From Cupriavidus pauculus (GTDB lineage: Bacteria; Pseudomonadota; Gammaproteobacteria; Burkholderiales; Burkholderiaceae): 64,000 nucleotides of DNA. A model generated the notes under the pieces. It was not told the origin of the DNA and did not search any database. It saw nothing but the letters and a program-made list of their open reading frames with translations. The position numbers and the translations under genes are program-made. Below, piece by piece: positions 3,055-39,205 of the stretch. Every line of letters starts with the position of its first letter. Position 1 is the stretch's first letter. The stretch covers positions 2,089,501-2,153,500 of the forward strand of contig NZ_CP044067.1 of NCBI RefSeq assembly GCF_008693385.1, given 5' to 3'.

Positions 3055-3113
3055 GGCGCGCCGCGCGTGAAAGCGCGGCGCATCCAAAGGCAATTTAGCG
3101 GACCAGGACGGCC

Positions 3114-5135: not shown

Positions 5136-5175
5136 TCGGGCGGACGCGCGCAACACTCAGACAAGGAGAGCAAAC

Positions 5176-5670
5176 ATGGCCGGCATCGGACACATCGATA
5201 CCCAGGGGAGCGAGGCCTCGGGCCAGGAGTTCCTGGTCTTCACGCTCGGCACCGAGGAATATGGCATCGACATCCTCAAGGTGCAGGAGATTCGCAGCTA
5301 CGAGACGGTGACCCGCATCGCCAACGCGCCCGATTTCATCAAGGGCGTGACGAACCTGCGCGGCGTGATCGTCCCGATCGTCGATCTGCGGCTGAAGTTC
5401 CGCCTCGGCAACGTGCGTTACGACCATCAGACCGTCGTCATCATCCTCAACGTCGCGGGCCGCGTGGTCGGCATCGTCGTGGATGGCGTGTCGGACGTGC
5501 TGACGCTGACGGGCGACGATATTCGTCCCGCACCGGAGTTCGGCGTGTCGGTGTCCAACGAGCACCTGACGGGTCTGGGCTCTGTGGAAGGCCGCATGCT
5601 GATTCTGATCGATATCGAACGCATGATGACCAGCCCGGAAATGGCGTTGATCGAGGCCGAACTGGCCTGA
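5176..5670 (+). CDS. cheW: Chemotaxis coupling protein CheW
   Basis: CheW bridges chemoreceptors and CheA in the signalling array. The 164-residue product is a single CheW domain (about 18-155) with the family segments [20 protein letters not shown] and [20 protein letters not shown] precedes the ATG. It follows cheA by 40 bases. A GC-rich hairpin and a 69-base gap separate it from cheR. No chemoreceptor gene follows it, although one often sits here in related operons. Confidence 0.95.
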
Positions 5671-5700
5671 TCCCGTCCTCGCAAGCAACGATGCAAGCCT

Positions 5701-5724
5701 GCTCGCCCTTCGGGGCGGGCTTCT
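5701..5724 (+). terminator. TTCG-loop hairpin between cheW and cheR
   Basis: GCTCGCCC pairs with GGGCGGGC (one T-G wobble) around a stable TTCG tetraloop and is followed by TTCT. The weak T-run suggests partial termination or attenuation, not a full stop. It would lower cheRDBYZ output relative to motAB-cheAW, or protect the upstream transcript end. Confidence 0.5.
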
Positions 5725-5739
5725 ACCAAGACATTCATC

Positions 5740-6657
5740 ATGACGCAGCTCCGTTCTTCCGCCAGTGCCATCGGGAAGCCAGCGGGGGCTGTTTCGCCCA
5801 CGATGCCCGTGATCACGCCGCTGCGTGACGATATGCGCGACTTCCTGCTCACCGAGCGGGACTTCGAGAAGGTGCGCGCATTGATTCACAAGCGGGCCGG
5901 CATCTCGCTGGGCAGCCACAAGCGCGAGATGGTCTACAGCCGCCTCGCGCGCCGGCTCCGCGCGCTGCAGCTCACCGACTTCGGCAGCTATCTTGCGATG
6001 CTCGAGGCCGACGAAGGTTCGGTGGAGTGGGAATACTTCACGAACGCGCTGACCACGAACCTGACCTCGTTCTTCCGCGAGGCACATCACTTTCCGCTGC
6101 TGGCCGAGCACGCGAGGAAGACCGGACGTCCATACAGCGTGTGGTGCGCGGCCGCATCGACCGGCGAGGAGCCGTACTCGATTGCGATCACGCTCGCGGA
6201 GGCGCTTGGCGATCGTGCCGGCACCGTGCTGGCCACGGACATCGACACGCAGGTCCTGGCCAAGGCGCGGAACGGCGTCTACACGACCGAACAGGTGGCG
6301 CGCCTGTCGCAGGAACGGCTCAAACGCTTTTTCCTCAAGGGCACGGGCTCGCGCGCCGGCGCGGTCAAGGTCAAGCCAGACCTCGCCTCGACCATCACTT
6401 TCGACGCGCTGAACCTGCTCGCGCCGGACTGGGGCATTCGCGAGCAGTTCGACGCAATCTTCTGCCGCAACGTGATGATCTACTTCGACAAGCCGACGCA
6501 GGGCCGCATCCTCGAGCGGTTTGCGCCGCTGTTGAAGCCGAACGGCCTGCTCTTCGCGGGGCACTCGGAGAACTTCTCGTACGTCACGCGCGCGTTCCAG
6601 CTGCGCGGGCAGACCGTGTACGAACTCGCCGGCCGCGCCGGCGCGGGAGGTGCGTGA
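5740..6657 (+). CDS. cheR: Chemoreceptor glutamate methyltransferase CheR
   Basis: CheR transfers methyl groups from S-adenosylmethionine to receptor glutamates to adapt the chemotaxis signal. An N-terminal helical domain (about 30-100; [14 protein letters not shown]) precedes the SAM-binding domain with [13 protein letters not shown] (about 137-149), [12 protein letters not shown] and the [10 protein letters not shown] motif. The 305-residue length is normal for betaproteobacteria, with a short unconserved N-terminal extension. The Shine-Dalgarno sequence is poor, so an internal start is possible. The TGA overlaps the cheD ATG by one base. Confidence 0.95.
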
Positions 6658-7313
6658 TGCGAACTCCGCAGATGCCCGAGGCCATCGCCACGCGCAAGTA
6701 TTTCGATCGCGAGTTCGGCAAGCAGGCCATCAAGCTGCTGCCGAACGAGTACTACGTGACCGGTGACGACGTGGTGCTGACCACCGTGCTGGGCTCGTGC
6801 GTCGCGGCGTGCATCCGCGACGAGGTCGCCGGCGTCGGCGGCATGAACCATTTCATGCTGCCCGACGACGAGAACGCCGGACCCGACCGCGTGCTCTCGG
6901 CATCGATGCGCTACGGCTGCTACGCGCTGGAAGTGCTGATCAACGAACTGCTGAAGATGGGCGCGCGCCGCGAACGGCTGGAAGCGAAGGTTTTTGGCGG
7001 TGGCGCGGTGCTCGCGAACATGACGACCCTCAATATTGGGGATCGAAATGCCGATTTCGTATTGAAGTACCTGAGAACGGAAGAGATACGCGTGGCGGCA
7101 CAGGACTTGCGCGGTCCGCATGCCCGGCGTGTGAGCTATTTCCCGCTGACGGGGCTGGCGCTGGTACGCCGGCTGACCCGCCAGGACGACACGGTCGTCG
7201 TGGAGCGCGACGAACGGGCATTGGCCCGCGCGCTGTCCACGTCCACGAAAACGCCCGCGCGAGGCGCCGTGGAATTGTTTACGCGGCAGGCGACGTCGAA
7301 GACGTCGTCGTGA
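6657..7313 (+). CDS. cheD: Chemoreceptor glutamine deamidase CheD
   Basis: CheD deamidates receptor glutamines to glutamates, the substrates of CheR, and in some bacteria is also controlled by CheY-P. The catalytic Cys ([10 protein letters not shown]) and His ([10 protein letters not shown]) motifs and the VFGGGAVL segment are present. The ATG at 6657 overlaps the cheR stop (TGATG), and the 218-residue product begins [20 protein letters not shown]. The open frame runs much further upstream, but that part is antisense or alternate-frame to cheR and not coding. The C-terminal 30 residues are basic and Thr/Ser-rich. Confidence 0.93.
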
Positions 7314-7335
7314 AGACTACAAGAGACGCAGAACT

Positions 7336-8406
7336 ATGACCGCCGCAAAGATCAAGGTGCTGTGCGTGGATGACTCCGCGCTGATACGCAGCCTGATGAC
7401 GGAGATCATCAACAGCCAGCCCGACATGGAGGTCGTGGGCACGGCACCGGACCCGCTGGTCGCACGCGATGCGATCAAGCGTCTGAATCCGGACGTGCTG
7501 ACGCTGGACGTGGAAATGCCGCGCATGGACGGGCTCGACTTTCTCGAGCGCCTGATGCGCCTGCGGCCGATGCCGGTGCTCATGGTGTCGTCGCTGACCG
7601 AACGCGGTTCCGAAATCACGATGCGGGCGCTGGAGCTCGGTGCCGTGGACTTCGTGACCAAGCCGAAGCTCGGCATCCGCGACGGCCTCATCGACTATAC
7701 GGACACCATCGCCGACAAGATCCGCGCGGCATCGCGCGCGCGCGTGCGTTCCACGGCCACGGCACCCACCACCGCCGCGGCGGCACCGATCCTGCGCAGC
7801 CCGTTGCTGGGCACCGAAAAGCTGATCATCGTCGGCGCATCGACGGGCGGCACCGAGGCAATCAAGGAATTCCTGATGCCGCTGCCGCCGGATTGTCCCG
7901 CGGTCATGATCGTGCAACACATGCCGGCCGGATTCACACGCTCGTTTGCACAGCGCCTGAACGGCCTGTGCCGCATTACGGTCAAGGAAGCCGAACATGG
8001 CGAACGTGTGCTGCCCGGTTACGCGTATATTGCGCCCGGTGATTCGCACCTGATGCTCGCGCGCAGCGGCGCGAACTATGTCGCGCACCTGTCGCAGGAT
8101 CCGCCCGTGAACCGCCACCGGCCCTCCGTGGACGTGCTGTTCGATTCGGCGGCCGTGCATGGCGGCAAGAACGTGACGGGCGTGATCCTGACCGGCATGG
8201 GCAAGGACGGCGCTCAGGGCATGTTACGGATGCGCGATGCCGGCGCGTACAACCTTGCGCAGGACGAGCAGTCCTGCATCGTGTTTGGCATGCCGAAGGA
8301 GGCGATAGCCGCCGGTGGCGTGCATGAAGTGGTGCCTCTGCAGTCGATGAGCCAGCGCGTAATGGCGCATCTGGCGACATTCGGTGCACGGGCGCAGCGC
8401 GTTTAA
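7336..8406 (+). CDS. cheB: Chemotaxis response regulator methylesterase/deamidase CheB
   Basis: CheB removes receptor methyl esters when phosphorylated by CheA. The receiver domain (1-125) has phosphoacceptor Asp58 in [12 protein letters not shown]. After a Thr/Ala linker comes the methylesterase domain with catalytic Ser169 (GASTGG), His195 (VQHMPAGF) and Asp291 (GMGKDGAQG). All three sit exactly five residues beyond their E. coli counterparts. The 356-residue length is typical. It follows cheD by 22 bases and cheY follows after 30 bases. Confidence 0.96.
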
Positions 8407-8436
8407 ATTTATCCACAACTGTTTTGGAGCCGTAGA

Positions 8437-8826
8437 GTGGACAAGAACATCAAGATCCTGGTGGTCGACGACTTCCCGACCATGCGTCGGATCATCCGTA
8501 ACCTGCTCAAGGAGTTGGGCTTCAACAACGTCGACGAAGCCGAAGATGGCGCCGCCGGCCTGGAGAAGGTCAAGGACGGCAGCTTCAACTTCGTCGTGTC
8601 GGACTGGAATATGCCTAACATGGATGGCCTGACGATGCTGCAGTCGATCCGCGCGATTCCCGCGATCGCCAAGACGCCGGTGCTGATGGTCACGGCCGAG
8701 GCGAAGAAGGAAAACATCATTGCCGCCGCGCAGGCCGGTGCCAACGGCTACGTGGTCAAGCCGTTTACCGCCGCCACGCTCGACGAGAAGATCACCAAGA
8801 TCTTCGAGAAGCTGGGCAAGGAGTAA
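8437..8826 (+). CDS. cheY: Chemotaxis response regulator CheY
   Basis: CheY-P binds the flagellar switch protein FliM and reverses rotation. The 129-residue product is a lone receiver domain with the acidic pair Asp11/Asp12, phosphoacceptor Asp56 ([12 protein letters not shown]), the Thr in MVTAEAKKE and the Lys in YVVKPF. The start is GTG, preceded by GGAG. This is the flagellar-type CheY, not a general receiver: the [11 protein letters not shown] segment matches the enteric proteins. It lies just upstream of its phosphatase cheZ. Confidence 0.96.
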
Positions 8827-8835
8827 GGTGCTGCC

Positions 8836-9480
8836 ATGTCGACGACTCAGACTTCTGCCATTGATTCGGCCGAGCAGATCATCCATCGTATCGGCAACCT
8901 CACAAGGATGCTGCGCGACAACATGCGGGAGCTGGGGCTCGACAAGGAAATCGAGCGTGCCGCCCAGGCCATTCCCGACGCACGCGATCGCCTGAGCTAC
9001 ATCGCGACGATGACCGAGAAGGCGGCCGAGCGCAGCCTCAACGCGGTCGAGATCGCCCAGCCGCTGCAGTCCGCGCTCGAAACGCAAGCCGAGGCGCTGG
9101 ACAAGCGCTGGGAAGAGTGGTTCGCCAAGCCGGTGGAACTGCAGGACGCACGCGCGCTCGTGCTGGACACGCGCGAGTTCCTCGCCGATGTTCCGGTGAA
9201 GACGCGCGCGACCGGTAGCCAGCTGCTCGAGATCATGATGGCCCAGGACTTCCAGGATCTGACGGGCCAGGTCATCAAGAAGATGATGGACATGATCCGT
9301 TCGCTCGAGCAGGAACTGCTGCAGGTGCTGATCGACAACGTGCCCGCCGATCGCCGCGTGGATACGCAAGCCACGCAGGCCACGCTGCTCAACGGCCCGC
9401 AGATCAACCCCGAAGGCAAGGCGGACGTGGTGGCGGATCAGTCGCAGGTGGACGACCTGCTGGCAAGCCTCGGCTTCTGA
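8836..9480 (+). CDS. cheZ: CheY-P phosphatase CheZ
   Basis: CheZ accelerates CheY-P dephosphorylation. The 214-residue helical protein has catalytic Asp141 and Gln145 in [15 protein letters not shown], matching E. coli Asp143/Gln147. Its C-terminal tail [11 protein letters not shown] is the CheY-binding peptide after a flexible linker. It starts 9 bases after cheY and ends the che operon. Its last 77 bases are overlapped on the other strand by the 3' end of the PI-PLC-like gene. Confidence 0.95.
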
Positions 9481-23586: not shown

Positions 23587-24780
23587 TCAATGGCTGCCGG
23601 CCGCGGTCTCGTGCTCGGCCGCCGCGAATTCGTAGCGTCCCTTGCCCTGCGCCTTGGCCATATACAGCGCCCGGTCGGCCATATTGAGAATGGCGTCGGC
23701 GTTCTGGCCCTCGGGCCGGACGTGCGCGATGCCGATGCTCACGCCGAGCCGTACCTGCAATCCTCCGGATAGCTCGTACCCTTCGCCGATCTCTCTCAGC
23801 AACTGCTGCGCCAGCGCCTGCACGCTCTCGCGGCTTTCGTTACGCAGCATGATCACGAACTCGTCGCCGCCGATCCGGTAGACCTGGCCCCGCCCCGGCA
23901 CCGCGTCGCGCAGCCGGGCGCCCACGCGTACGAGCAGTTCGTCGCCGCAGCCGTGGCCGTACGAGTCGTTGACCGGCTTGAAACCGTCCAGATCGAGATA
24001 GAGCAGTGTCAGGTAGCGCCCCGCGGCCATGCGCGCGGCGCTCGCCTCGCGGATCTCGGCGATCAGGCTCGCGCGGTTGAGCAGCCCCGTCAGCGAGTCG
24101 TGCCGCGCGCGATGCGCGTTTTCGCGTTCCGAACGCATCGTGGCCACGACCATCGCGTTCATGCGGAACGACGCGCTCGACATGCTGACGACATACACCG
24201 GCAACTGCAGCAGCGTCAGCAGGAACAGCGGCTCGCCGACGACGATCGCCCCCACGCAGGTCGGCCCCAGGCTCAGCAGGATCATCAGCGTGGTCATGCG
24301 CGGCGCGCCGTAGTTGCGGAAGCAGATGCCGCCGCACATTGCCGCCGCGGAGAGGCATGCCATCGCGGCGGAGAGCCAGTCGCCCCGCGTCACGCAGAAG
24401 TACGTGCCGAGGCCCACGCTGCCTGCCCACGCGAGCGCGAGCGCGATATGGATATCGGTGGGCGTGGGCTGCCTTGCCAGGCCCGCGCGGCGCGCGATGG
24501 TCATCACGACGATGCGCGCGACGCAGATCGCCACCTCGATGCCCAGCCACCCATAGAACGGCGCGGTACGCATATGCAGCGTGATGACGACCGCCACCAG
24601 CACGGTGTTGAGCATGCCGCCATAGAAGATGGATAGCGTGCCGAACAGGCTGCCGACCAGCGCTTCGCGGATTTCAGGCGTGACGTCGCGGCCCGGATCC
24701 GCAATCCAGCGAATTGGGCGCCACCGCGGGGACGAATAGACCCGGGGTGACAGGAACATGGGCGAGTACGGTTGCGTCAT
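23587..24780 (-). CDS. Membrane diguanylate cyclase (GGDEF domain)
   Basis: Probably synthesises cyclic di-GMP. About six hydrophobic helices (residues 45-205) form an uncharacterised membrane sensor. A short linker leads into a GGDEF domain (about 225-390) with an intact GGDEF active site at residues 304-308 (YRIGGDEFVIML) and substrate-binding DSLTGLLNR and LDLDGFKPVND. The RxxD inhibitory site expected five residues before GGDEF is absent, so product inhibition may be lacking. It is divergent from the hybrid kinase operon, with a 249-bp intergenic region. The start is uncertain, as the RBS is weak. Confidence 0.88.
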   Translation of the reverse strand: MTQPYSPMFLSPRVYSSPRWRPIRWIADPGRDVTPEIREALVGSLFGTLSIFYGGMLNTVLVAVVITLHMRTAPFYGWLGIEVAICVARIVVMTIARRAGLARQPTPTDIHIALALAWAGSVGLGTYFCVTRGDWLSAAMACLSAAAMCGGICFRNYGAPRMTTLMILLSLGPTCVGAIVVGEPLFLLTLLQLPVYVVSMSSASFRMNAMVVATMRSERENAHRARHDSLTGLLNRASLIAEIREASAARMAAGRYLTLLYLDLDGFKPVNDSYGHGCGDELLVRVGARLRDAVPGRGQVYRIGGDEFVIMLRNESRESVQALAQQLLREIGEGYELSGGLQVRLGVSIGIAHVRPEGQNADAILNMADRALYMAKAQGKGRYEFAAAEHETAAGSH

Positions 24781-25029: not shown

Positions 25030-28000
25030 ATGACCGGTTTGCTACAAACCTCGTTTCAACGTTTCCTGATTGGCACGATCGTGGTGCCCGTCGCACTCGC
25101 GGTTGTGTTCGTCGCGGACGCCCTGACGCCGCTGGGCGTCACTGCGTGGCTGTTCTACCTCGTGCCGGTCTGCCTGGCACTGTTCTCGGACAGCCCGCGC
25201 CTGCCGTTGCTGACCGCCGCCAGCACGTCGATCCTGCTCGTGGCGGGCTATTACCTGTCGCCGCCGGGGGCCAGCCCCATCGTTGCCATCGTCAACCGCA
25301 GCTTTGGCTTCGCGGTCATCTGGTTCCTCGCGGTGGTGATCTATCGCTATACCGTCTCGCGGCTGGCGGTGCAACGGAGCGCCTGGCTCCACCAGTCGCA
25401 GGTCCGGATCCACCAGGCCGTGCGCAACCCGCAGTCGGCCGGCAATGTGGGCGACGCGCTCGTGCGCGCGCTGGCGCAGACGCTGGGCGCGCATGTCGGC
25501 GCCGTCTACGAGTGCGAAGGCGGCACGCTGCGGCGGCTCGCGGGCTGGGCCTTGCCGCAATCGACACCCGAGGTGCTGGTGTCGGGGCAGACCATCGCGG
25601 GTCAGGCGGCGGCCGAAGGCAGGGTGATCGCCATCGGCGGGCTGCCCGCCGACTATCTGCCCGTGTCGTCGGCGCTGGGCCGCACCGGCGCGGGCGAGAT
25701 CGTTGCCGCGCCGCTGACCGCGGAAGGCGAGACCGTCGGCGTGGTCGAGCTTGGCTTTGTCGGCACTCAGCGCGAGACCGCGGACGTGGTCGAACTGTTC
25801 GAACGCATCGGCGAGCCGATCGGCATGCTGCTGCGCGCCGCGCTCTACCGGCACCGGCTGGAGGCCCTGCTTACCGAGACGCAGCGCCAAAGCGAGGAAA
25901 TGCAGGTTCAGCAGGAAGAGTTGCGCGTCTCCAACGAGGAACTCGAGGAGCGCGGCCGCGCGCTCATGGAATCGCAGGCGCGTCTCGAGTCGCAGCAGGC
26001 CGAGCTCGAGCAGACCAATGTCCAGCTCGAGGAACACGCGCAGCGGCTGGAAACGCAAAAACGCGAGATGCTCGCGTTCCAGGCGGAACTGGCCGCCAAC
26101 GCGCGCGCGCTCGAACGCTCGAACCAGTACAAGAGCGAGTTCCTCGCCAATATGTCGCACGAGCTGCGCACGCCGCTGAACAGCGCGCTGATTCTTGCCA
26201 AGCTGCTGCAGGAGAACAAGCCCGGCACGCTCAATGAAGAGCAGGTGCGTTATGCCGCGACGATCCATGCGGCCAACACCGACCTGCTGAACCTGATCAA
26301 CGACATTCTCGACCTGTCGAAGATCGAGGCCGGCCACCTGACCATCGAGCCGGAACCGGTCGACGTCGAGACGTTCGCGCGCACGCTCGAGCAGATGTTC
26401 CAGCCCGTGGCCACGCAGAAACGCCTGGCCATGCGCGTGGAGGTGATGCCGGGCACGCCGCCGGCGATCGTTACAGACGGCCAGCGCCTGCAGCAGGTGC
26501 TCAAGAACCTGCTGTCCAACGCGTTCAAGTTCACCGAACAGGGCGCCGTGACGCTTGCCATCGCCGCGCAGGGCGACGACGCGGTCCGGTTCGAGGTACG
26601 CGACACCGGGATCGGTATTCCGCGCGAGAAGCAACAGGTCATCTTCGAGGCATTCCAGCAGGCGGACGGCACCACGAGCCGGCGCTTCGGCGGCACGGGG
26701 CTGGGGCTGTCGATCTCGCGCGAGCTGACGCGGTTGCTCGGCGGGTCGATCGCGGTGGCCAGCGAACCGGGGCAAGGCAGCGTGTTCTCGCTGACGGTGC
26801 CGCGCGTACTCGGTGCCGACGAGGCCGCGCGCGCGGGGTTCGTGACGACGGGCGTACCGTTCCCGCAGGCGGCGCAGGTCGCCCGTGCGGTGCCCGCACC
26901 CGCCGCACCGGCCGCCACGCCGCCATCGTCACCGTCGCGCGCGCCGGCCCCCGAGCGGTCCGCGCACGTCAATGGCACCCCGGCAGGCACACCGGCAGCC
27001 ACCCCGGGAGGCACCCCCCATTGGCCCGCGCCGATCGCCGACGATCGCGCGAAACGGTCGCGTGGCAGCCGCCTGATCCTCGTGGTCGAGGACGACATCG
27101 CGTTTGCCAATATCCTGTACAACCTCGCGCACGAACTGGACTTCGACTGCATTCACGCAACGACGTCCGGCGCGGGCCTGGAACTGGCGCGCGAGCATCA
27201 GCCGTGCGGGATCCTGCTCGACGTGGCGCTGCCGGACCAATCGGGCCTGACGCTGCTCGACTGGCTCAAGCACGACCCCGCGACGCGCCATATCCCGACG
27301 CACCTGATCTCGGTGAGCGATCATGCGGAAGCCGCGCTCCATCGCGGCGCCATCGGCTACACGTTCAAGCCGAGCGGCCGCGACCAGCTGGCCGCCGCCA
27401 TCCGCGGACTCGAGGCCCGCATGGTGCAGGGCATGCGGCGCGTGCTCGTGGTGGAGGACGATGCGGTGCTGCGCGAGAGCATTCGCGCGCTGCTGCGCTC
27501 GCTCGACGTGGAGATCGTCACGGCGGACAGCATCGCCGAGGGCGTCGCCGCACTTTCGGGCCAGCGCTTCGACTGCGTGGTCATGGACATGGCCCTGCCC
27601 GATGGCACGGGCCACGATCTGCTCGCCCGCATGGCGGCGGATGCCGGCAACGGCGGACAGGCCATGCCGCCGGTCATCGTCTACACGGGACGCCAGTTGT
27701 CCGCCGAGGACGAGCAGCGCCTGCGCCGGCATTCGAAGTCGATCATCATCAAGGGCGCGCGCTCGCCCGAGCGATTGCTCGACGAGGTGACGCTGTTTCT
27801 GCATAGTGTCGAGTCCGCGCTGCCGCCCGAGCAACAGCGCATGCTGCGCGACGCGCGCAGCCGCGACGATGCGTTCGACGGGCGCAAGGTGCTGCTGGCC
27901 GAGGACGATGCGCGCAATATCTTCGCGCTGTCCCGCGTGCTGGAGCCGCTCGGCGCGACCGTGGAGATCGCGCGCAGCGGCCGCGAGGCGCTCGACAAGC

Positions 28001-28251
28001 TCGCCGAGCACGACGATGTCGACCTCGTGTTGATGGACATCATGATGCCGGAGATGGACGGCATTACCGCGATGCGCGCCATTCGCGCGATGCCGCAGCA
28101 TGGTCGGCTGCCGATCATCGCGCTGACCGCCAAGGCCATGCCGTCGGACCGCGAGGCCTGCCTGCAGGCCGGCGCCAACGACTACATCGCCAAGCCCATC
28201 GACGTCGATAAACTTCTTTCCCTCTGCCGCGTATGGCTACACGCAAGCTGA
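25030..28251 (+). CDS. Membrane GAF/coiled-coil hybrid histidine kinase with three receivers
   Basis: A 1073-residue sensor kinase. Order: four hydrophobic helices (about 10-105), a GAF domain (about 125-275), a long Glu/Gln-rich coiled coil (about 278-370), HisKA with phosphoacceptor His377 (NMSHELRTPLN), HATPase (about 480-595, DTGIGIP and GGTGLGLSIS), a Pro/Ala linker, and three receivers with Asp731, Asp853 and Asp1003. The first receiver departs from the usual pattern (LLDVALPDQSG). Downstream genes encode CheR, CheB and a receiver-kinase, and the CheR ORF overlaps this one by 19 bases. The coiled coil resembles those in CheB/CheR fusion proteins and may be the methylation target. No signal for the sensor can be deduced. 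Confidence 0.87.
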   Translation: MTGLLQTSFQRFLIGTIVVPVALAVVFVADALTPLGVTAWLFYLVPVCLALFSDSPRLPLLTAASTSILLVAGYYLSPPGASPIVAIVNRSFGFAVIWFLAVVIYRYTVSRLAVQRSAWLHQSQVRIHQAVRNPQSAGNVGDALVRALAQTLGAHVGAVYECEGGTLRRLAGWALPQSTPEVLVSGQTIAGQAAAEGRVIAIGGLPADYLPVSSALGRTGAGEIVAAPLTAEGETVGVVELGFVGTQRETADVVELFERIGEPIGMLLRAALYRHRLEALLTETQRQSEEMQVQQEELRVSNEELEERGRALMESQARLESQQAELEQTNVQLEEHAQRLETQKREMLAFQAELAANARALERSNQYKSEFLANMSHELRTPLNSALILAKLLQENKPGTLNEEQVRYAATIHAANTDLLNLINDILDLSKIEAGHLTIEPEPVDVETFARTLEQMFQPVATQKRLAMRVEVMPGTPPAIVTDGQRLQQVLKNLLSNAFKFTEQGAVTLAIAAQGDDAVRFEVRDTGIGIPREKQQVIFEAFQQADGTTSRRFGGTGLGLSISRELTRLLGGSIAVASEPGQGSVFSLTVPRVLGADEAARAGFVTTGVPFPQAAQVARAVPAPAAPAATPPSSPSRAPAPERSAHVNGTPAGTPAATPGGTPHWPAPIADDRAKRSRGSRLILVVEDDIAFANILYNLAHELDFDCIHATTSGAGLELAREHQPCGILLDVALPDQSGLTLLDWLKHDPATRHIPTHLISVSDHAEAALHRGAIGYTFKPSGRDQLAAAIRGLEARMVQGMRRVLVVEDDAVLRESIRALLRSLDVEIVTADSIAEGVAALSGQRFDCVVMDMALPDGTGHDLLARMAADAGNGGQAMPPVIVYTGRQLSAEDEQRLRRHSKSIIIKGARSPERLLDEVTLFLHSVESALPPEQQRMLRDARSRDDAFDGRKVLLAEDDARNIFALSRVLEPLGATVEIARSGREALDKLAEHDDVDLVLMDIMMPEMDGITAMRAIRAMPQHGRLPIIALTAKAMPSDREACLQAGANDYIAKPIDVDKLLSLCRVWLHAS

Positions 28252-29114
28252 AACCCCAGATGACGCTGCCGGAAGATGCCGACGGCGATATTCGTCTGCC
28301 CGATGCGACGTTCGAGATCGAGCTGGACCTGTTGCTGGAAGCCATCTTCCGCAAGTACCAGCACGACTTCCGCAGCTACGCGCGCGCGTCGCTGCGGCGC
28401 CGGTTGAGCCAGGCCACGCAGGACTTCGGACTGGACACGCTGTCGCAGCTGCAGGACCGCATGCTGCGCGACAGCGCGGTGTTCGCGCGGCTGCTGCAGT
28501 ACCTCACCGTGCAGGTCAGCGAGATGTTCCGGGACCCGAGCTACTTCCGCGCGATTCGCGAGCACGTGGTGCCCGTGCTGCAGACGTATCCGTCCGTCAA
28601 CGTCTGGGTGGCCGGCTGCAGCAGCGGCGAGGAACTGTGGTCGCTCGCGATCCTCTTCGAAGAAGAAGGCCTGGCCGAGCGCACGGTGTTCTATGCCACC
28701 GATATCAACCCGGAAGCGCTTGTCGCCGCGCGCGCGGGCGTCTACGATGCGGGCCGGTTGCGCGTGTTCGGCGAGAACTACCTCGCGGCCGGCGGGCGCC
28801 GTTCGTTGTCGGACTACTATCACGCGGCGTACGGCAAGGCGAAGTTCAGCGCCAACCTGATCCGGCAGTCGGTCTTCGCGGACCATAGCCTGGCCACCGA
28901 CAGCGTGTTTCAGGAAGCGCAGCTGATCTCGTGCCGCAATGTGCTGATCTACTTCGATCGCGCGTTGCAGGATCGCGCGATCGGCCTGTTCCGCGATGCG
29001 CTCGCGCGGCGCGGTTTCCTTGGGCTCGGCAGCAAGGAGAGCCTGCAGTTCACCACCCATGCGGGCGACTTCGAGACCGTCGATGCGCGCGAACGGCTGT
29101 ATCGCAAAGTCTGA
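28233..29114 (+). CDS. CheR-family methyltransferase of the hybrid-kinase operon
   Basis: A second CheR-type protein glutamate methyltransferase (293 residues), distinct from the flagellar cheR. It has the N-terminal helical domain (about 30-100; YARASLRRRLSQ) and the SAM-binding domain with VAGCSSGEELWSLAI (about 127-141), YATDINPEAL and SCRNVLIYFD. The variant motif GCSSGEELWS replaces the common STGEEPYS, as in CheRs tied to sensor kinases and unlike those tied to flagellar receptors. It overlaps the kinase gene by 19 bases and precedes a CheB, so its substrate is probably within the kinase. Confidence 0.88.
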   Translation: MATRKLKPQMTLPEDADGDIRLPDATFEIELDLLLEAIFRKYQHDFRSYARASLRRRLSQATQDFGLDTLSQLQDRMLRDSAVFARLLQYLTVQVSEMFRDPSYFRAIREHVVPVLQTYPSVNVWVAGCSSGEELWSLAILFEEEGLAERTVFYATDINPEALVAARAGVYDAGRLRVFGENYLAAGGRRSLSDYYHAAYGKAKFSANLIRQSVFADHSLATDSVFQEAQLISCRNVLIYFDRALQDRAIGLFRDALARRGFLGLGSKESLQFTTHAGDFETVDARERLYRKV

Positions 29115-29123
29115 GGCACAGCG

Positions 29124-29756
29124 ATGAGCGCACGCCAGCCTTCACCCATCGCCGCGCGGTCCACGACAGTGGCCGGCAGGCGGCCGGCCGCGATCGTGAT
29201 CGGTGCGTCGGCGGGGGGCATCGAGGCGCTGGGCATGCTGCTGCCGCAGTTGCCCGCGGACTTCGCGCCGCCGGTGATCGTGGTCGTGCATCTCCGGCCC
29301 GATGTGCCGAGCCTGTTGCCCGAGGTGTTCGGCGAACGTTGTGCGCTGCCGGTGCGCGAGGCGGAGGACAAGATGCCCGTGCTGCCGCGACATATCTACA
29401 CGGCACCGTCGGACTACCATCTGCTGGTCGAGCGGGCGGGGATCGACGATGCATCGTTCTCGCTGTCGGTCGAGCCGCCGGTGCGCTTCTCGCGGCCGTC
29501 CATCGACGTGCTGTTCGAATCGGCCGCCGTCGCATGGCGCGAGCGCGTGCTGGGCATCCTGCTGTCCGGCGCCAACGACGACGGTGCCCGCGGGCTGAGC
29601 GCGATTCGCGCGGGCGGCGGTATTACCTGGGTGCAGTCCCCCGCGAGCGCGGCGGTGGCGACGATGCCCGAACACGCGATCGCGCGCGGCGCCGCCGATC
29701 GTATCCTGCCATTGGCCGATATGGGCGAGGCATTGCGCCGCGAGTTCAGCGAATGA
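29124..29756 (+). CDS. Receiver-less CheB methylesterase of the hybrid-kinase operon
   Basis: A 210-residue CheB_methylest domain protein with catalytic Ser29 (IGASAGG), His56 (VVHLRPD) and Asp153 (SGANDDGARG). Unlike the flagellar CheB at 7336-8406, it has no N-terminal receiver, so it is not controlled by direct phosphorylation. It may be constitutive or controlled by binding to a receiver of the kinase. It follows the cheR-like gene by 9 bases and is followed by the receiver-kinase gene after 34 bases. Confidence 0.88.
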   Translation: MSARQPSPIAARSTTVAGRRPAAIVIGASAGGIEALGMLLPQLPADFAPPVIVVVHLRPDVPSLLPEVFGERCALPVREAEDKMPVLPRHIYTAPSDYHLLVERAGIDDASFSLSVEPPVRFSRPSIDVLFESAAVAWRERVLGILLSGANDDGARGLSAIRAGGGITWVQSPASAAVATMPEHAIARGAADRILPLADMGEALRREFSE

Positions 29757-29790
29757 AGCGGTAACAGAGCAACAGACGATCACGATCACT

Positions 29791-30930
29791 ATGTCCACAC
29801 CCATCAAGATCCTTGCAGTCGACGACATCGCCAGCAACCTGACGGCGCTCGATGCCGTGCTGGCCAAGCCCGATGTCGAGATCGTCCATGCCAACTCGGG
29901 CGCGCAGGCGCTCGAACTGCTGCTCGAGCACGAATTCGGCCTTGCCATTCTCGACGTGCACATGCCGGAGATGGACGGGTTCGAACTGGCCGAGCTCATG
30001 CGGGGCAGCAAGCGCACGAGCCATATCCCGATCCTGTTTCTGACTGCCGCGGGCGAAGACAGCCAGCGCGCGTTCCGTGGCTACGCGAGCGGTGCGGTGG
30101 ACTTCCTGTTCAAGCCGATCGACGCGCGCGTGCTCGCGGCCAAGGTCGATGTGTTCGTGCAGCTCGCGCGCAACAAGCAACAGATGGCGGAGCAGCTCAA
30201 GACGGCCGAACAGCTGCTCAAGACCAACGAGATGCTCATGGCGGTGCTCGCGCACGACCTGCGCACGCCGCTGTCCGCGATCATCGCGTCCGCGTCCTTC
30301 CTCGGACGTTTCGGTGGCGAAGAGAAGCTGCGGCCCGCGACGGACCGTATCCAGCGCAGCAGCGAGCGCATGGCGCGCATGGTCGACCAGCTGCTGCACG
30401 TGGCGCGGCTGCATGGCGGCCGCGTGCACCTGAATCCGCTAAAGGAGGATGTCCACGCGATCTGCACGGCCATCGTCGACGAGTACGAGGTGGCTTACGG
30501 CAAGGGCCGTATCGTCATCGCCTCGCAGGGCAACACGATGGCGCAGATCGATCCGGACCTGATCGCGCAGGTCATGACCAACCTGATCGGCAATGCGCTG
30601 CATCATGGAGATGCGGAGACACCGATCGCCGTGCATGTGGATGGAGGCGATCGCTCGCGCGTTGTCATTACCGTGCGCAATGGCGGCACGATCGATCCCG
30701 CCGTGCTGCCGCATATCTTCGAGGCGTTCCGTTCGGGGTCCTCGACCAACGGGAACCAGGGTGCGCTCGGTGGCGTCGCCAATAGCGGCATGTCGCAGGG
30801 ACTCGGTCTCGGCCTCTACATCACGCGCGAGCTCGTGACGCTGCATGGCGGCAGTGTGGACGCGCAGTCGGGGGACGGGGAGACGATCTTTGTGGTGACG
30901 CTGCCGCGCGAGTGTTCCGCGGGCGAATGA
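29791..30930 (+). CDS. Receiver-histidine kinase (REC-HisKA-HATPase)
   Basis: A soluble 379-residue protein with an N-terminal receiver (phosphoacceptor Asp55, LAILDVHMPEMDG), a short coiled linker, HisKA with His155 (VLAHDLRTPLSA) and an HATPase domain (about 270-375, GLGLGLYITRELV). Such proteins receive phosphate from an upstream kinase and act as a second kinase. Here the giver is probably the three-receiver hybrid kinase. It ends the four-gene operon. No DNA-binding output is encoded, so the final target lies elsewhere. Confidence 0.88.
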   Translation: MSTPIKILAVDDIASNLTALDAVLAKPDVEIVHANSGAQALELLLEHEFGLAILDVHMPEMDGFELAELMRGSKRTSHIPILFLTAAGEDSQRAFRGYASGAVDFLFKPIDARVLAAKVDVFVQLARNKQQMAEQLKTAEQLLKTNEMLMAVLAHDLRTPLSAIIASASFLGRFGGEEKLRPATDRIQRSSERMARMVDQLLHVARLHGGRVHLNPLKEDVHAICTAIVDEYEVAYGKGRIVIASQGNTMAQIDPDLIAQVMTNLIGNALHHGDAETPIAVHVDGGDRSRVVITVRNGGTIDPAVLPHIFEAFRSGSSTNGNQGALGGVANSGMSQGLGLGLYITRELVTLHGGSVDAQSGDGETIFVVTLPRECSAGE

Positions 30931-34309: not shown

Positions 34310-37300
34310 ATGACCAACTCCGAGATGACCAACTCCGGAATGACCCACTCGGGGACCACCACGTCCTCCGGCACCGGGATGTCCGGTGACGACGGTTCGC
34401 CCGCGTTTCTCGCCGGCGGCGGGGAGATGGGTGCGCGCATCCGTGCGTTCGACTGGACCGGCACGCCGCTCGGCGCTCCCGCGCAATGGCCGCAGAGCCT
34501 CAAGACCGCGATCCGCATCATTCTGACCTCGCGGCAGCCGATCTGGATCGGCTGGGGCGAAGATCTCCTCTTCTTCTACAACGACGCATACAAGGCCATT
34601 ATCGGCGGCCGCCATCCCGCGGCGCTCGGGCAGCCGACGAGGTCGGTATGGCGCGAGATCTGGGACGACATCGGGCCGCTGCTCGCGACGGCGATGGCCG
34701 GCGTCGAAGGGATCTTCGTCGAGCAGAAGCTCCTGATCATGGAGCGCAACGGGTATCCCGAGGAAACCTATTACACGTTCTCGTACAGCCCGGTGCCCGA
34801 CGATCAAGGCGGGACCGGCGGCATCATCTGCGCGAACAGCGACGGCACCGAACGCGTGCTGGCCGAGCGGCAACTGACGCTGCTGCGCGAGCTGGGCGCC
34901 TCCACCGCGGAAGCGCGCACGCGCGACGAGGTCTGCAGGGTGGCCATGCAGTCGCTGCGAACCAATCCGCACGATGTCACGTTCGCACTGCTCTACCTTG
35001 GGGATCGCGGTGCCGGCGAACTCGCGCTGGCCGGCAGCGAAGGCATTGCGGCCGATCATGCGATGGCGCCTGCCACTTTGCGTTGCGATGCGCCAGATTC
35101 CCCCGCGGCATGGCCCGCTTACGACGCGCTCCAGCAGGGCCGCGTGGTGGTCGTCGATTCGCCCGCCGAGGGCGAGCGGCTGCCCGGCGGCGCATGGAGC
35201 GTGCCGCCGAAGCAGGTCGCCATCGTGCCGGTGTCTCCGTCGGGCGAGACATCCCAGCACGGGGTGCTGGTGCTCGGCCTGAACCCGTACCGTCTCGTCG
35301 GCGACCGCTATCGCAGCTTTCTCGGGCTTGTCGCGGGGCAGATCAGCGGCGCGTTCGGCTACGTCGATGCCTACGAGGAGGAGCGCCGGCGCGCGGAGGC
35401 GCTGGCCGAGATCGATCGCGTCAAGACGACGTTCTTCTCGAATATCAGTCACGAGTTCCGCACGCCGCTGACGCTGATGCTCGGGCCGCTCGAGGAGATG
35501 CTGAACCGTCCCGGCGCCGACGACGACCGTGCGCTGCTGGAGATCACGCATCGCAACGGCATGCGATTGCTCAAGCTCGTCAATGCGCTGCTCGACTTCT
35601 CGCGCATCGAGGCGGGCCGGCTGCAGATGCAGCCGCAACCGACCGACCTCCCTGCGTTCACGGCGGAACTGGCCTCGCTGTTTCGCTCCGCCATCGAGTC
35701 GGCGGGCCTGCAGCTCGTCGTGGACTGCCCGCCGATGCCGGCACCGGTCGCGATCGATCGGACGATCTGGGAGACCGTCGTCCTGAACCTGCTGTCGAAC
35801 GCGTACAAGTTCACGTTCCAGGGAACGATCGAAGTCGCGGTGAACGCCACCTCCGAGGGCGACGTCGAACTCAGCGTGCGCGATACGGGTATCGGCATTC
35901 CGGAGGCCGAGCTGCCGCGGCTGTTCGAACGCTTTCACCGCGTGGCCGGCGCAATGGGCCGTTCCATCGAAGGCAGCGGCATCGGGCTCGCCCTGGTGCA
36001 GGAACTCGTGAAGCAGCACGGCGGCGTCATCGCGGTGGAAAGCCGGCTCGGCGAAGGCACGCGCGTCGTCGTGCGCCTGCCGCGCGCGTCGCAGCAGACG
36101 CCGCTGCCGGCGCCCGCGCCCGTGGAGATGAGCACGCAGGCACGCGCCTATGCGGAGACCGCAACGCGCTGGGGTGCCATGGCCGAAGCGGTGGCCACAC
36201 CGGCTGCCGCCACGGGGGATGCCGCCGCCAACGACGCCATGGACGACAGTGCGCGCGCGACCATGATCGTCGCGGACGACAACGCCGATCTGCGCGAGTA
36301 CATGCGGCGGCTGCTCGAGGGCGCGGGGCACGAGGTGCGCCTGGCCAACGATGGCGGCGAAGCGCTGGCCCTCGCCCGCGCGCAGGCGCCCGACCTGATC
36401 GTCTCCGACGTGATGATGCCCGGCATGGACGGTGTGGAACTGGTGCGCATGTTGCGCGAGGATGCCACGCTGCGGGACACGCCCGTGCTGTTGCTCTCGG
36501 CTCGCGCAGGAGAAGAAGCCCGCGTGAGCGGCCTCGCGAGCGGCGCCGACGATTACCTGATCAAACCGTTCTCCGCGCGCGAGTTGCTGGCACGCGTGGC
36601 GAGCAACCTGCAGCTGTCGCGCTTGCGGCGCGAGACCGAACGCCGGCTGCGCGACGAGTCGCGGGTGCTGGAAGTGCTCAATGCCGTCGGTACGACGGTC
36701 GCGGCCGAACTCGACCTCGGCCGCGCGGTGCAGGTGGTCACCGATGCCGCGACCGAGCTGACCGGCGCGGCGTTCGGCGCGTTCTTCTACAACGTGCTCG
36801 ACGACAAGGGCGGCTCCTACATGCTGTATTCGCTGTCGGGCGTGCCGAAGGAAGCGTTCGACAAGTTCCCGATGCCGCGCAATACCGCCGTATTCGCGCC
36901 GACGTTTCTCGGGCAGGGCATCGTGCGGTCCGACGATATCACCCGCGATCCGCGCTTCGGCCGCAATCCGCCGCACCGCGGCATGCCGGAAGGGCATCTG
37001 CAGGTGTGCAGCTATCTGGCCGCGCCCGTGATTTCACGCAACGGCGATGTGCTGGGGGGCCTGTTCTTCGGTCATCCGCAAGCCGGCATGTTCACCGAGC
37101 GCGCGGAGCGCGTGCTCGTGGGGATTGCCGCGCAGGCCGCGGTCGCCATCGACAATGCGCGGCTCTATCAGGCCGCGCAGGCCGAGATCGCCAAGCGCAC
37201 CAAGGCGCAGGATGCACTGCGCGAACTCAACACGACGCTGGAGCGCCGGGTCAACGAGGCCGTGGCCGACCGTGACCGGCTGTGGGATCTCAGCGAAGAC

Positions 37301-39205
37301 CTGCTGATGGTGGCGGCCGCGGACGGGACGCTCGAGCGCGTGAGTCCGTCATGGCAGCGCACGCTGGGCCTGTCGCCCGACGTGCTCCTCGGACGCTCGT
37401 GCCTCGTGTTCATTCATCCCGACGATCTCGTGTCGATGACCGAACAGATGATCGCGTTGCGCCGCGAGGGCAGCGCTGTCCGGCACGAATGCCGGTTCGG
37501 GCGGCAGGATGGGCAGTGGCGGTGGATCGCGTGGACGCTCACACTGGATCCGTCGTCGAGCCGCATCCATGGCGTGGGCCGCGATGTGACGGGCGATCGC
37601 GAGGCGGCCGAGGCGTTGCGGCAGGCCGACGAGGCGCTGCGCATGGCGCAGAAAATGGAAGCCATCGGCAAGCTCACCGGTGGCGTGGCTCATGACTTCA
37701 ACAACCTGTTGCAGGTGATTGGCGGCAACCTCCAGCTGCTTGCCACCGATGTCGCCACCGAGGCGCGTCCGACACAGCGCGTGCGCAATGCGCTGGCCGG
37801 TGTGGCACGCGGCGCCAAGCTCGCGGCGCAATTGCTCGCGTTCGGCCGGCGGCAGCCGCTCGCGCCGAAGGTGGTCAATCTTGGACGCTTTATCCGCGGG
37901 CTCGACGACATGCTGCGGCGCGCGCTCGGCGATGGCGTCGAGATCGAGACCATCGTCGCGGGCGGCCTGTGGAACACGCTCGTCGATCCGTTCCAGGTCG
38001 AGAACGCGCTGCTCAACCTGGCCATCAACGCGCGCGACGCGATGGCGGGCCATGGCAGGCTGACGATCGAGGCCGGCAATGCGTCGCTCGACGAAGCGTA
38101 CGCGCAGCGCCATGCCGACGTGACGCCGGGCCAGTATGTGATGGTGGCCGTAACCGATACGGGCATGGGCATGACGCCGGACGTGCAGGAACACGTATTC
38201 GAGCCGTTCTTCACGACCAAGCCGGAAGGGCAGGGCACGGGACTCGGGCTGTCGATGGTCTATGGCTTCGTCAAGCAGTCGGGCGGGCATGTGAAGATCT
38301 ACAGCGAGTCGGGCCTCGGCACGACCGTGCGGCTGTACCTGCCGCGCGAACGTCAGGAAGAAGATCTCGAAACCGATGTCGATGTGGGCGCCGCCACGGG
38401 CGGCACCGAGACCGTGCTCGTGGTCGAGGACGACGAGGACGTGCGCAATACCGTGGTCGATATGCTGTCGAATCTCGGCTACCGCGTGCTCAAGGCCAAG
38501 GATGCGCTGAGCGCGCTCGCCATCGTCGAGAGCGGGGTATCCGTGGACGTGCTGTTCAGCGACGTCGTGATGCCGGGACCCATGCGCAGTCCCGAGATGG
38601 CGCGCAAGGTGCGCGAGCGGCTGCCCGGTATCGCGGTGCTGTTCACCTCCGGCTATACGGACAATGCGATCGTGCATTCGGGACGGCTCGATGCGGGTAT
38701 CGAACTGCTGTCCAAGCCGTATTCGCACGAGGCGCTGGCGCGCAAGATCCGCTATGTGATCGCGTGCGGGGGCGCCGTGCTCCATCCCGTGCCGGTGCCG
38801 GAAGCGCACAAGCAGGCGGGGCCGGTGCCGCGGCTTGCCGAGATGCGGCTGCTGTTCGTCGATGACGACGACCTTGTGCGCACGAGTTCGGCGGAACTGC
38901 TGCGCAGCTTCGGCATCGAGGTCATCGAGGCCAGCAACGAAGAGGAAGCCATGCGTGCCATGCGCGCGAACCGCATCGACGTGCTGTTGACCGATGTGGG
39001 GCTCGGGAGCGCGTCGGGGATCGACCTTGCGATGGAAGCGGCTCTCGAATGGCCGGCATTGCAGATCGTTTTCGTCAGCGGTTATGACGTGACGCTGACA
39101 CCGGAACAGCATCGGATACTGCCGCACGCGATCTCGCTGCGCAAACCGTATGCGCTCGATACGTTTATCGGCGCGCTACAGGGCGTGATGTCGCGAGATC
39201 GGTAA
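34310..39205 (+). CDS. Double hybrid histidine kinase with two kinase cores and three receivers
   Basis: A soluble 1631-residue signalling protein. Order: a Met/Thr/Ser-rich start, a PAS-like domain (about 45-175), GAF (about 185-350), a first kinase core with His381 (NISHEFRTPL), receiver 1 with Asp700, GAF 2 (about 800-960), PAS (about 1000-1110), a second kinase core with His1128 (GGVAHDFNNLLQ), receiver 2 with Asp1418 and receiver 3 with Asp1562. The first core is of the ordinary HisKA type, the second of the HDFNN type usual in oxygen/light PAS kinases. Receiver 3 has TDVGLGSASG in place of DxxMP. No output domain is present and no partner gene adjoins it. Confidence 0.87.
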   Translation: MTNSEMTNSGMTHSGTTTSSGTGMSGDDGSPAFLAGGGEMGARIRAFDWTGTPLGAPAQWPQSLKTAIRIILTSRQPIWIGWGEDLLFFYNDAYKAIIGGRHPAALGQPTRSVWREIWDDIGPLLATAMAGVEGIFVEQKLLIMERNGYPEETYYTFSYSPVPDDQGGTGGIICANSDGTERVLAERQLTLLRELGASTAEARTRDEVCRVAMQSLRTNPHDVTFALLYLGDRGAGELALAGSEGIAADHAMAPATLRCDAPDSPAAWPAYDALQQGRVVVVDSPAEGERLPGGAWSVPPKQVAIVPVSPSGETSQHGVLVLGLNPYRLVGDRYRSFLGLVAGQISGAFGYVDAYEEERRRAEALAEIDRVKTTFFSNISHEFRTPLTLMLGPLEEMLNRPGADDDRALLEITHRNGMRLLKLVNALLDFSRIEAGRLQMQPQPTDLPAFTAELASLFRSAIESAGLQLVVDCPPMPAPVAIDRTIWETVVLNLLSNAYKFTFQGTIEVAVNATSEGDVELSVRDTGIGIPEAELPRLFERFHRVAGAMGRSIEGSGIGLALVQELVKQHGGVIAVESRLGEGTRVVVRLPRASQQTPLPAPAPVEMSTQARAYAETATRWGAMAEAVATPAAATGDAAANDAMDDSARATMIVADDNADLREYMRRLLEGAGHEVRLANDGGEALALARAQAPDLIVSDVMMPGMDGVELVRMLREDATLRDTPVLLLSARAGEEARVSGLASGADDYLIKPFSARELLARVASNLQLSRLRRETERRLRDESRVLEVLNAVGTTVAAELDLGRAVQVVTDAATELTGAAFGAFFYNVLDDKGGSYMLYSLSGVPKEAFDKFPMPRNTAVFAPTFLGQGIVRSDDITRDPRFGRNPPHRGMPEGHLQVCSYLAAPVISRNGDVLGGLFFGHPQAGMFTERAERVLVGIAAQAAVAIDNARLYQAAQAEIAKRTKAQDALRELNTTLERRVNEAVADRDRLWDLSEDLLMVAAADGTLERVSPSWQRTLGLSPDVLLGRSCLVFIHPDDLVSMTEQMIALRREGSAVRHECRFGRQDGQWRWIAWTLTLDPSSSRIHGVGRDVTGDREAAEALRQADEALRMAQKMEAIGKLTGGVAHDFNNLLQVIGGNLQLLATDVATEARPTQRVRNALAGVARGAKLAAQLLAFGRRQPLAPKVVNLGRFIRGLDDMLRRALGDGVEIETIVAGGLWNTLVDPFQVENALLNLAINARDAMAGHGRLTIEAGNASLDEAYAQRHADVTPGQYVMVAVTDTGMGMTPDVQEHVFEPFFTTKPEGQGTGLGLSMVYGFVKQSGGHVKIYSESGLGTTVRLYLPRERQEEDLETDVDVGAATGGTETVLVVEDDEDVRNTVVDMLSNLGYRVLKAKDALSALAIVESGVSVDVLFSDVVMPGPMRSPEMARKVRERLPGIAVLFTSGYTDNAIVHSGRLDAGIELLSKPYSHEALARKIRYVIACGGAVLHPVPVPEAHKQAGPVPRLAEMRLLFVDDDDLVRTSSAELLRSFGIEVIEASNEEEAMRAMRANRIDVLLTDVGLGSASGIDLAMEAALEWPALQIVFVSGYDVTLTPEQHRILPHAISLRKPYALDTFIGALQGVMSRDR

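Follow-up and report, generated by a model that had tools for sequence, protein, structure and literature searches.

A hybrid histidine kinase operon with its own CheR and receiver-less CheB in Cupriavidus pauculus and its relation to cfcABCD and RsbK–RsbM

What could a CheR methyltransferase and a CheB methylesterase modify in an operon that encodes no partner from a chemotaxis pathway? This question is raised by four genes at positions 25030–30930 of a 64,000-nucleotide stretch of the Cupriavidus pauculus genome (assembly GCF_008693385.1, contig NZ_CP044067.1, positions 2,089,501 to 2,153,500), hereafter the window. A preliminary description of this DNA had listed a GAF/coiled-coil kinase with three receivers, a CheR, a CheB lacking a receiver and a receiver-kinase, and had proposed a phosphorelay with its own methylation enzymes. 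The coordinates of the open reading frames bore out four co-directional genes with one overlap (19 bases, between the kinase and CheR) followed by gaps of 9 and 34 bases. The claimed domain content and the absence of CheA, CheW and chemoreceptor domains from the four genes were likewise confirmed with Pfam. Among the matches listed, no NCBIfam family was above cut-off for any of the four proteins. The genes are as follows:

25030–28251, + strand: hybrid histidine kinase of the CfcA/RsbK type, 1073 amino acids (membrane module, GAF, signalling helix, HisKA, HATPase and three receivers; Pfam)
28233–29114, + strand: CheR-type glutamate O-methyltransferase of the RsbM/CfcB type, 293 amino acids (Pfam CheR_N and CheR)
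29124–29756, + strand: CheB methylesterase without a receiver, CfcC type, 210 amino acids (Pfam CheB_methylest only)
29791–30930, + strand: receiver-histidine kinase of the CfcD type, 379 amino acids (Pfam Response_reg, HisKA and HATPase_c)

The operon is real, strongly co-inherited, separate from flagellar chemotaxis and of a class that has been described. It is probably a cfcABCD-type module of the RsbK–RsbM class, in which CheR and CheB tune the signalling helix of the hybrid kinase. The gene set, the enzyme residues, the co-inheritance, the link between helix-bearing kinases and CheR and the kinship with Pseudomonas putida and Bacillota loci were all read from sequence.

Co-inheritance and separation from flagellar chemotaxis

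Orthologs of the operon CheR (E up to 1e-40, the window's own genome being counted each time) were present in 20/60 genus genomes, 36/150 family genomes and 21/369 genomes of a class sample. The N-terminal third of the kinase (residues 1–365) had an identical distribution within the genus, being present in those 20 genomes and absent from the remaining 40. Thus, all 20 genus genomes with the kinase have CheR, and loss of the CheR/CheB genes from relatives that keep the kinase, which the preliminary description had named as the observation that would speak against it, was not seen in the genus.

We fetched 45 loci. The genus contributed 19, every one except that of the window, and the rest of the family 26 out of 28; the two left out, in genomes G494 and G512, are truncated by contig ends. 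Read by eye, the order CheR–CheB–receiver-kinase was kept in 45/45 loci and was preceded by the kinase in 44/45, a conservation beyond chance. An automatic tally of the same loci gave lower counts (kinase 43, CheB 42) because some reading-frame starts were over-extended. The exception, locus L109 of genome G477 (83% complete), has CheR, CheB and the receiver-kinase with no hybrid kinase gene, and no kinase remnant was found within the fetched stretch except matches to receivers; G477 has a solo kinase elsewhere in its genome.

CheR enzymes normally act on chemoreceptors, and the two operon enzymes could modify ordinary chemoreceptors in trans, the kinase being merely co-transcribed. The genome offers the opportunity, since flagellar chemotaxis is encoded in it and CheR occurs at seven places: the flagellar one, this operon, three CheB–CheR fusions on contig C2, a second CheA/CheW cluster (L126) and a Wsp-like cluster (L127). 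The ordinary chemotaxis cluster (MotB, CheA, CheW, CheR, receiver-bearing CheB and CheZ) lies in the window itself, at 2017–9480, about 15.5–23 kb upstream of the operon. Nevertheless, action in trans is quite unlikely. The operon CheR is only 24% identical to the flagellar CheR of the window (MAFFT alignment), whereas it is 40–47% identical to the CheR of 14 RsbKM-like Bacillota loci (best tblastn segment, a different measure). CheR is strictly co-inherited with the kinase throughout the genus. When the window's own CheA and CheW served as BLAST queries against 148 context loci, neither protein was found; the flanks were not searched for chemoreceptors. Furthermore, a role in chemotaxis was ruled out for the P. 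putida homologs CfcB and CfcC, as stated in PMC4951495. The identity values and the missing CheA and CheW uphold the earlier proposal of a phosphorelay with its own CheR/CheB, separate from flagellar chemotaxis.

Both enzymes appear intact. Arg100, Asp157 and the CRNxxIYF segment of CheR, which we take to be catalytically relevant, were invariant across the alignment, flagellar CheR included. Ser29, His56 and Asp153 of CheB, presumably its catalytic triad, were invariant in the CheB alignment. That the two proteins are non-catalytic here and serve as scaffolds or sensors of S-adenosylmethionine is very improbable: the enzyme activity of this operon is a prediction, which leaves room for such a role, but CheR and CheB keep the residues known from the canonical enzymes.

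Described relatives and wider distribution

A P. putida locus (strain 31303, L224) has the same gene order on one strand: three-receiver hybrid kinase, CheR, CheB and receiver-kinase. Identities to the operon proteins are 50% for the kinase (residues 114–1070), 57% for CheR, 53% for CheB and 36% for the receiver-kinase. Judging from order and domains, L224 is likely to be the cfc cluster, which was described in another strain, KT2440. In the KT2440 cluster cfcABCDE, the hybrid kinase CfcA, acting via its phospho-acceptor histidine, is needed for the activity of the diguanylate cyclase CfcR, a GGDEF/EAL response regulator (PMC4951495; PMC6849547), and cfcB and cfcC are a CheR/CheB pair (PMC4951495). 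CfcD carries a receiver, and the system as described there acts on a biofilm messenger. The operon shares order, domains, four homologous proteins and the same helix motif with L224. It differs in that its kinase has a membrane module where L224 has CHASE3, that its genome has no CfcR-like receiver-GGDEF-EAL protein, and that no counterpart of cfcE was identified.

The second relative is the RsbK–RsbM–RsbY system of Bacillus cereus, which works in the stress response. RsbM methylates the hybrid kinase RsbK on the S-helix before the kinase domain, which leads to repression of sigma-B; its authors regard it as an orphan, a methyltransferase that has no esterase partner (PMC4574943). The same group had earlier counted 127 RsbK-like kinases in 10 phyla, as told there. 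Like the operon, the system combines a methyltransferase gene with that of a receiver-bearing hybrid kinase with GAF and a long signalling helix (PMC4574943); in the window, the CheR-type gene comes directly after the kinase gene. The CheR identity of 40–47% points the same way; it was obtained with the 14 Bacillota loci, B. cereus RsbM not being in the alignment. These loci look like the RsbK–RsbM module. RsbY-like receiver-SpoIIE genes were found in 10/14 of them, and CheB in 0/14. Three of their kinases were scanned: those of L268 and L271 are CHASE3-HAMP-GAF-kinase-receiver proteins, and that of L240 has a 4HB_MCP sensor and three receivers. Unlike the operon kinase with its three receivers, RsbK and the kinases of 8/14 Bacillota loci (an approximate count) have one. 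The output differs as well: RsbY is a receiver-phosphatase (PP2C), whereas the operon has CheB and a receiver-kinase. Among the context loci compared, RsbY-like genes occurred only in Bacillota; the rest of the window's genome was not searched for one.

The assertion that such an arrangement has no described function was therefore mistaken: for the same arrangement in P. putida, cfcABCDE, an output has been described, and CheR-type methylation of a kinase is known from RsbK–RsbM (PMC4574943). The dependence of a cyclic di-GMP (c-di-GMP) enzyme on CfcA and the methylation of the RsbK S-helix by RsbM are the parts of our proposal taken from published relatives. The operon class is thus already known, and its unexplored part is the dedicated receiver-less CheB. 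We found no report of a dedicated CheB acting on a hybrid kinase of this type in the searched literature, which left out most subscription papers.

Wsp and other chemosensory pathways with alternative functions are built on CheA, CheW and chemoreceptors, whereas the operon has no gene for any of them. A likeness exists in that CheR is tied to multidomain response regulators, including receiver-histidine kinases and receiver-GGDEF proteins, in the CheR-TPR clusters of PMC3447774. Caulobacter HmrABCX was rejected as a relative, since its cluster, so far as its description was available, shows no CheR/CheB.

A scan of named genomes by CheR alignment gave at least 80 loci, and the following figures refer to the 80 listed. 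Their record titles name Pseudomonadota, Bacteroidota, Bacillota, Gemmatimonadota, Planctomycetes, Verrucomicrobiota, Cyanobacteria and others; many are metagenome bins. By automatic tally, a hybrid kinase lay immediately 5' of CheR in 69/80 loci, and CheB was present in 55/80 and in 49 of the 69 kinase-linked ones. L206 and L237 were counted as kinase-less, yet a kinase is present in their locus maps; L212, L216, L246 and L256, with no kinase in the tally, start near a contig end. The first downstream receiver protein of the 69 kinase-linked loci was a receiver-kinase in 33, a receiver-GGDEF protein in 10 and a receiver protein of a different type in 12; the tally recognised none in the remaining 14. 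Of 23 loci in the class sample, 16 had the kinase by tally (L057 makes 17 by eye); six of those 16 had a receiver-GGDEF protein and five a receiver-kinase. In L064–L066, the kinase lies 3' of CheR instead of 5'.

Pfam analysis of selected fourth proteins identified receiver-GGDEF, receiver-PAS-GGDEF, receiver-PAS-GGDEF-EAL, receiver-PAS-PilZ, receiver-HWE kinase and receiver-HisKA kinase combinations, and kinases of selected relatives carried CHASE3 or 4HB_MCP sensors. The sensor and the output therefore appear exchangeable around a kinase–CheR core. The sensor in particular is a variable slot, because CHASE3 occurs in L224 and also in at least one Burkholderiaceae operon (L108).

The signalling helix as a candidate substrate

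Which part of the kinase might the enzymes modify? Its parts, all on the + strand, are as follows:

25051–25422, + strand: N-terminal membrane module, residues 8–131; no Pfam family; occupies the CHASE3 position of P. putida L224
25447–25833, + strand: GAF domain, residues 140–268 (Pfam)
25894–25950, + strand: signalling-helix motif, residues 289–307, with three heptad-spaced glutamate pairs; putative methylation region (alignment, predicted structure)
26131–26334, + strand: HisKA domain with the phospho-acceptor His377 (Pfam)
26476–26805, + strand: HATPase_c domain (Pfam)
27076–27405, + strand: receiver 1 (genome-wide receiver matches, converted to window coordinates, as for receivers 2 and 3)
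27442–27786, + strand: receiver 2
27889–28221, + strand: receiver 3

Pfam found no CHASE3 sensor in the operon kinase. Its N-terminus has three hydrophobic stretches above the hydropathy cut-off, and the structure prediction (kinase residues 1–620) modelled the membrane module as four helices, 8–32, 39–52, 58–76 and 83–131. AlphaFold placed residues 250–339 in one helix, confident to about residue 330, and His377 on a second helix, 354–394, with low confidence at 336–375. In 68 non-redundant CheR-adjacent kinases, glutamate was conserved at positions 289, 290, 296, 297, 303 and 304 in 81, 82, 87, 96, 75 and 82%, respectively. The equivalent positions in later heptads averaged about 38% (computed from the printed values), residue 325 being the exception with 90%. 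The stretch QQEELRVSNEELEE ranks among the best conserved of the kinase, kinase and receiver motifs aside. The heptads would place leucine at d and the glutamates at b and c.

A long leucine heptad coil before HisKA was present in 75 of 78 de-duplicated CheR-adjacent kinases. As a control, 120 genomes of the phylum were searched with the kinase domain only, and 80 hand-picked loci gave 77 usable kinases (the kinase-only sample). A same-strand CheR lay in the fetched stretch for 28 of the 38 heptad-coil kinases of this sample vs. 0 of 39 others, uncorrected for shared ancestry.

On this basis, signals would enter the kinase via the membrane module and GAF and travel along the long signalling helix to HisKA, where His377 would be phosphorylated. 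CheR would methylate glutamates of the helix and thereby set kinase activity, which is lowered in RsbK. The dedicated receiver-less CheB would demethylate them, free of the feedback by phosphorylation to which chemotaxis CheB is subject. Phosphate would pass both to the receivers within the kinase and to that of the fourth protein; the kinase activity of this last protein may be the output towards a partner. Methylation in the operon, the particular glutamates, the reversal by CheB and the final output are what we infer here.

A solo paralog encoded in the same genome as the operon (L184:7075–10656) is a CHASE3-GAF-helix hybrid kinase with three receivers; it is 58% identical to the operon kinase across helix and kinase domain and carries the helix motif. 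Solo kinases were found in 10 of the 150 family genomes, and the operon CheR in 10/10 of these vs. 26/140 of the others. The co-occurrence is weak evidence, because 8/10 come from one genus and only the ten best candidates per genome were scored, and it merely hints that two kinases may share one CheR/CheB pair. Contig C2 (249 kb) encodes its three CheB–CheR fusions within about 25 kb (L124:4548–12703 and L125:8704–12522). Two of them have a kinase and a receiver, and their coils after CheR carry runs of heptad glutamate pairs. CheB-CheR-PAS-histidine kinase fusions thus share with the operon the enzyme pair and a heptad glutamate-pair coil, there between CheR and PAS. They differ in being a single chain, with PAS in place of GAF and the membrane module, whereas the operon has separate genes.

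Several observations weigh against tuning of the helix by CheR and CheB. Any coiled coil is expected to show seven-residue periodicity. Ten of the 38 coil-bearing kinases of the kinase-only sample had no CheR in the stretch, and at least one CheR-adjacent kinase (L266) had no coil. CheR occurred with no preceding kinase in L205, L241, L244 (the latter two cyanobacterial), L251 and L276 of the 80 listed loci and in L061 and L062 of the class sample; these last two have a CfcB-like CheR with neither kinase nor CheB beside it, and L062 adjoins a contig end. The automatic tally located no CheB at 20 of the 69 kinase-linked loci. No CheR was found in the 19 kb around the solo paralog, and a CheR/CheB neighbour was absent. 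P. putida mutants of the other cfc genes retained the crinkle phenotype (unpublished, stated in PMC4951495), and the methylated residues of RsbK are unnamed in the available text of PMC4574943.

The glutamate pairs belong to the same side of the balance. They occurred in 69/78 CheR-adjacent vs. 13/64 other kinases, but with coil presence controlled the values were 67/75 beside CheR vs. 12/16 (P = 0.21, not significant), and in the kinase-only sample, controlled in the same way, 10/17 vs. 8/12. A laxer coil threshold gave 69/77 vs. 12/19 (P = 0.01). The coil-controlled comparison is blunt because four of the 16 'unlinked' kinases have CheR in their locus and a fifth has CheB. When the kinase-only sample was split by kinase identity, P < 0.05 was kept only in the smallest, most similar group (nine kinases). 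We therefore attribute the association of CheR to the coil class and not to the pairs as such, and rejected heptad glutamate pairs as proof of methylation, the contrast being lost among coil-bearing kinases at two stricter thresholds. Finally, the chemoreceptor methylation consensus (from PMC6391922) had no match in the operon kinase, nor did its relaxed form in the kinase's coil; the strict form matched 2/153 CheR-adjacent coils.

The missing consensus and the pairs untied from CheR among coil-bearing kinases would both be expected if the enzymes target some other residue of the kinase complex or another of its proteins, be it a receiver, a partner or the fourth protein, while the heptad glutamates play only a structural part. 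We consider such a target unlikely: in a related kinase, the S-helix is where RsbM acts (PMC4574943), the glutamates are conserved in the first three heptads and mostly not in later ones, and CheR accompanies coil-bearing kinases. Since the consensus is absent and the pairs do not follow CheR, the case for the helix as substrate is made chiefly by the likeness to RsbK, the coil–CheR association and the conserved glutamates.

Receptor methylation is usually taught as a chemoreceptor device. A histidine kinase with dedicated enzymes that add and remove its methyl groups would show that ordinary two-component signalling can include adaptation. More tentatively, and with somewhat less than even confidence, we suggest that reversibly methyl-accepting hybrid kinases of this kind are pan-bacterial, CheR and a feedback-free CheB setting the gain of the signalling helix without chemoreceptor, CheA or CheW, and sensors and outputs being interchangeable; in some Burkholderiaceae, the pair may also serve the solo kinase (10/10 sampled, and the G477 operon without its own kinase). 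Since CheB accompanies 49/69 kinase-linked loci, reversibility is directly testable in P. putida KT2440 via a c-di-GMP read-out.

Output and genomic neighbourhood

The fourth protein, the receiver-kinase, is most likely the output of the operon. Its domains (Pfam, profile matches) are as follows:

29809–30147, + strand: receiver
30232–30417, + strand: HisKA
30550–30909, + strand: HATPase

Phosphorylation of the receiver may control the autokinase of receiver-histidine kinase proteins, as suggested in PMC3447774. A CfcR-type receiver-GGDEF-EAL partner was not found when receiver and GGDEF matches of the genome were compared: of 109 receiver matches, a single one lies in the same open reading frame as a GGDEF match. 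A CfcR-like partner is regarded as missing because this sole receiver-GGDEF protein, which is WspR-like, sits in the Wsp-like cluster L127.

Upstream of the operon and outside the conserved unit lies one further feature:

23587–24780, – strand: divergent membrane diguanylate cyclase (GGDEF; Pfam)

This protein has the GGDEF motif and a motif like the RxxD inhibitory site, and it is encoded at the same position in the two closest relatives (L079, L080). It was rejected as a fixed output, since a divergent GGDEF gene occurred within 3 kb upstream of only 3/128 CheR-adjacent kinases.

Two more large kinase proteins are encoded in the window. A protein of 1905 amino acids (57885–63602, – strand) combines a protein-kinase-like domain, an AAA ATPase, GAF, PAS and a histidine kinase. 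A 1631-amino-acid hybrid kinase with two HATPase domains, three receivers, GAF and PAS (34310–39205, + strand) is encoded about 3.4 kb downstream of the operon, and a kinase reading frame lies at a similar downstream distance in the genus loci L079, L080, L081 and L092.

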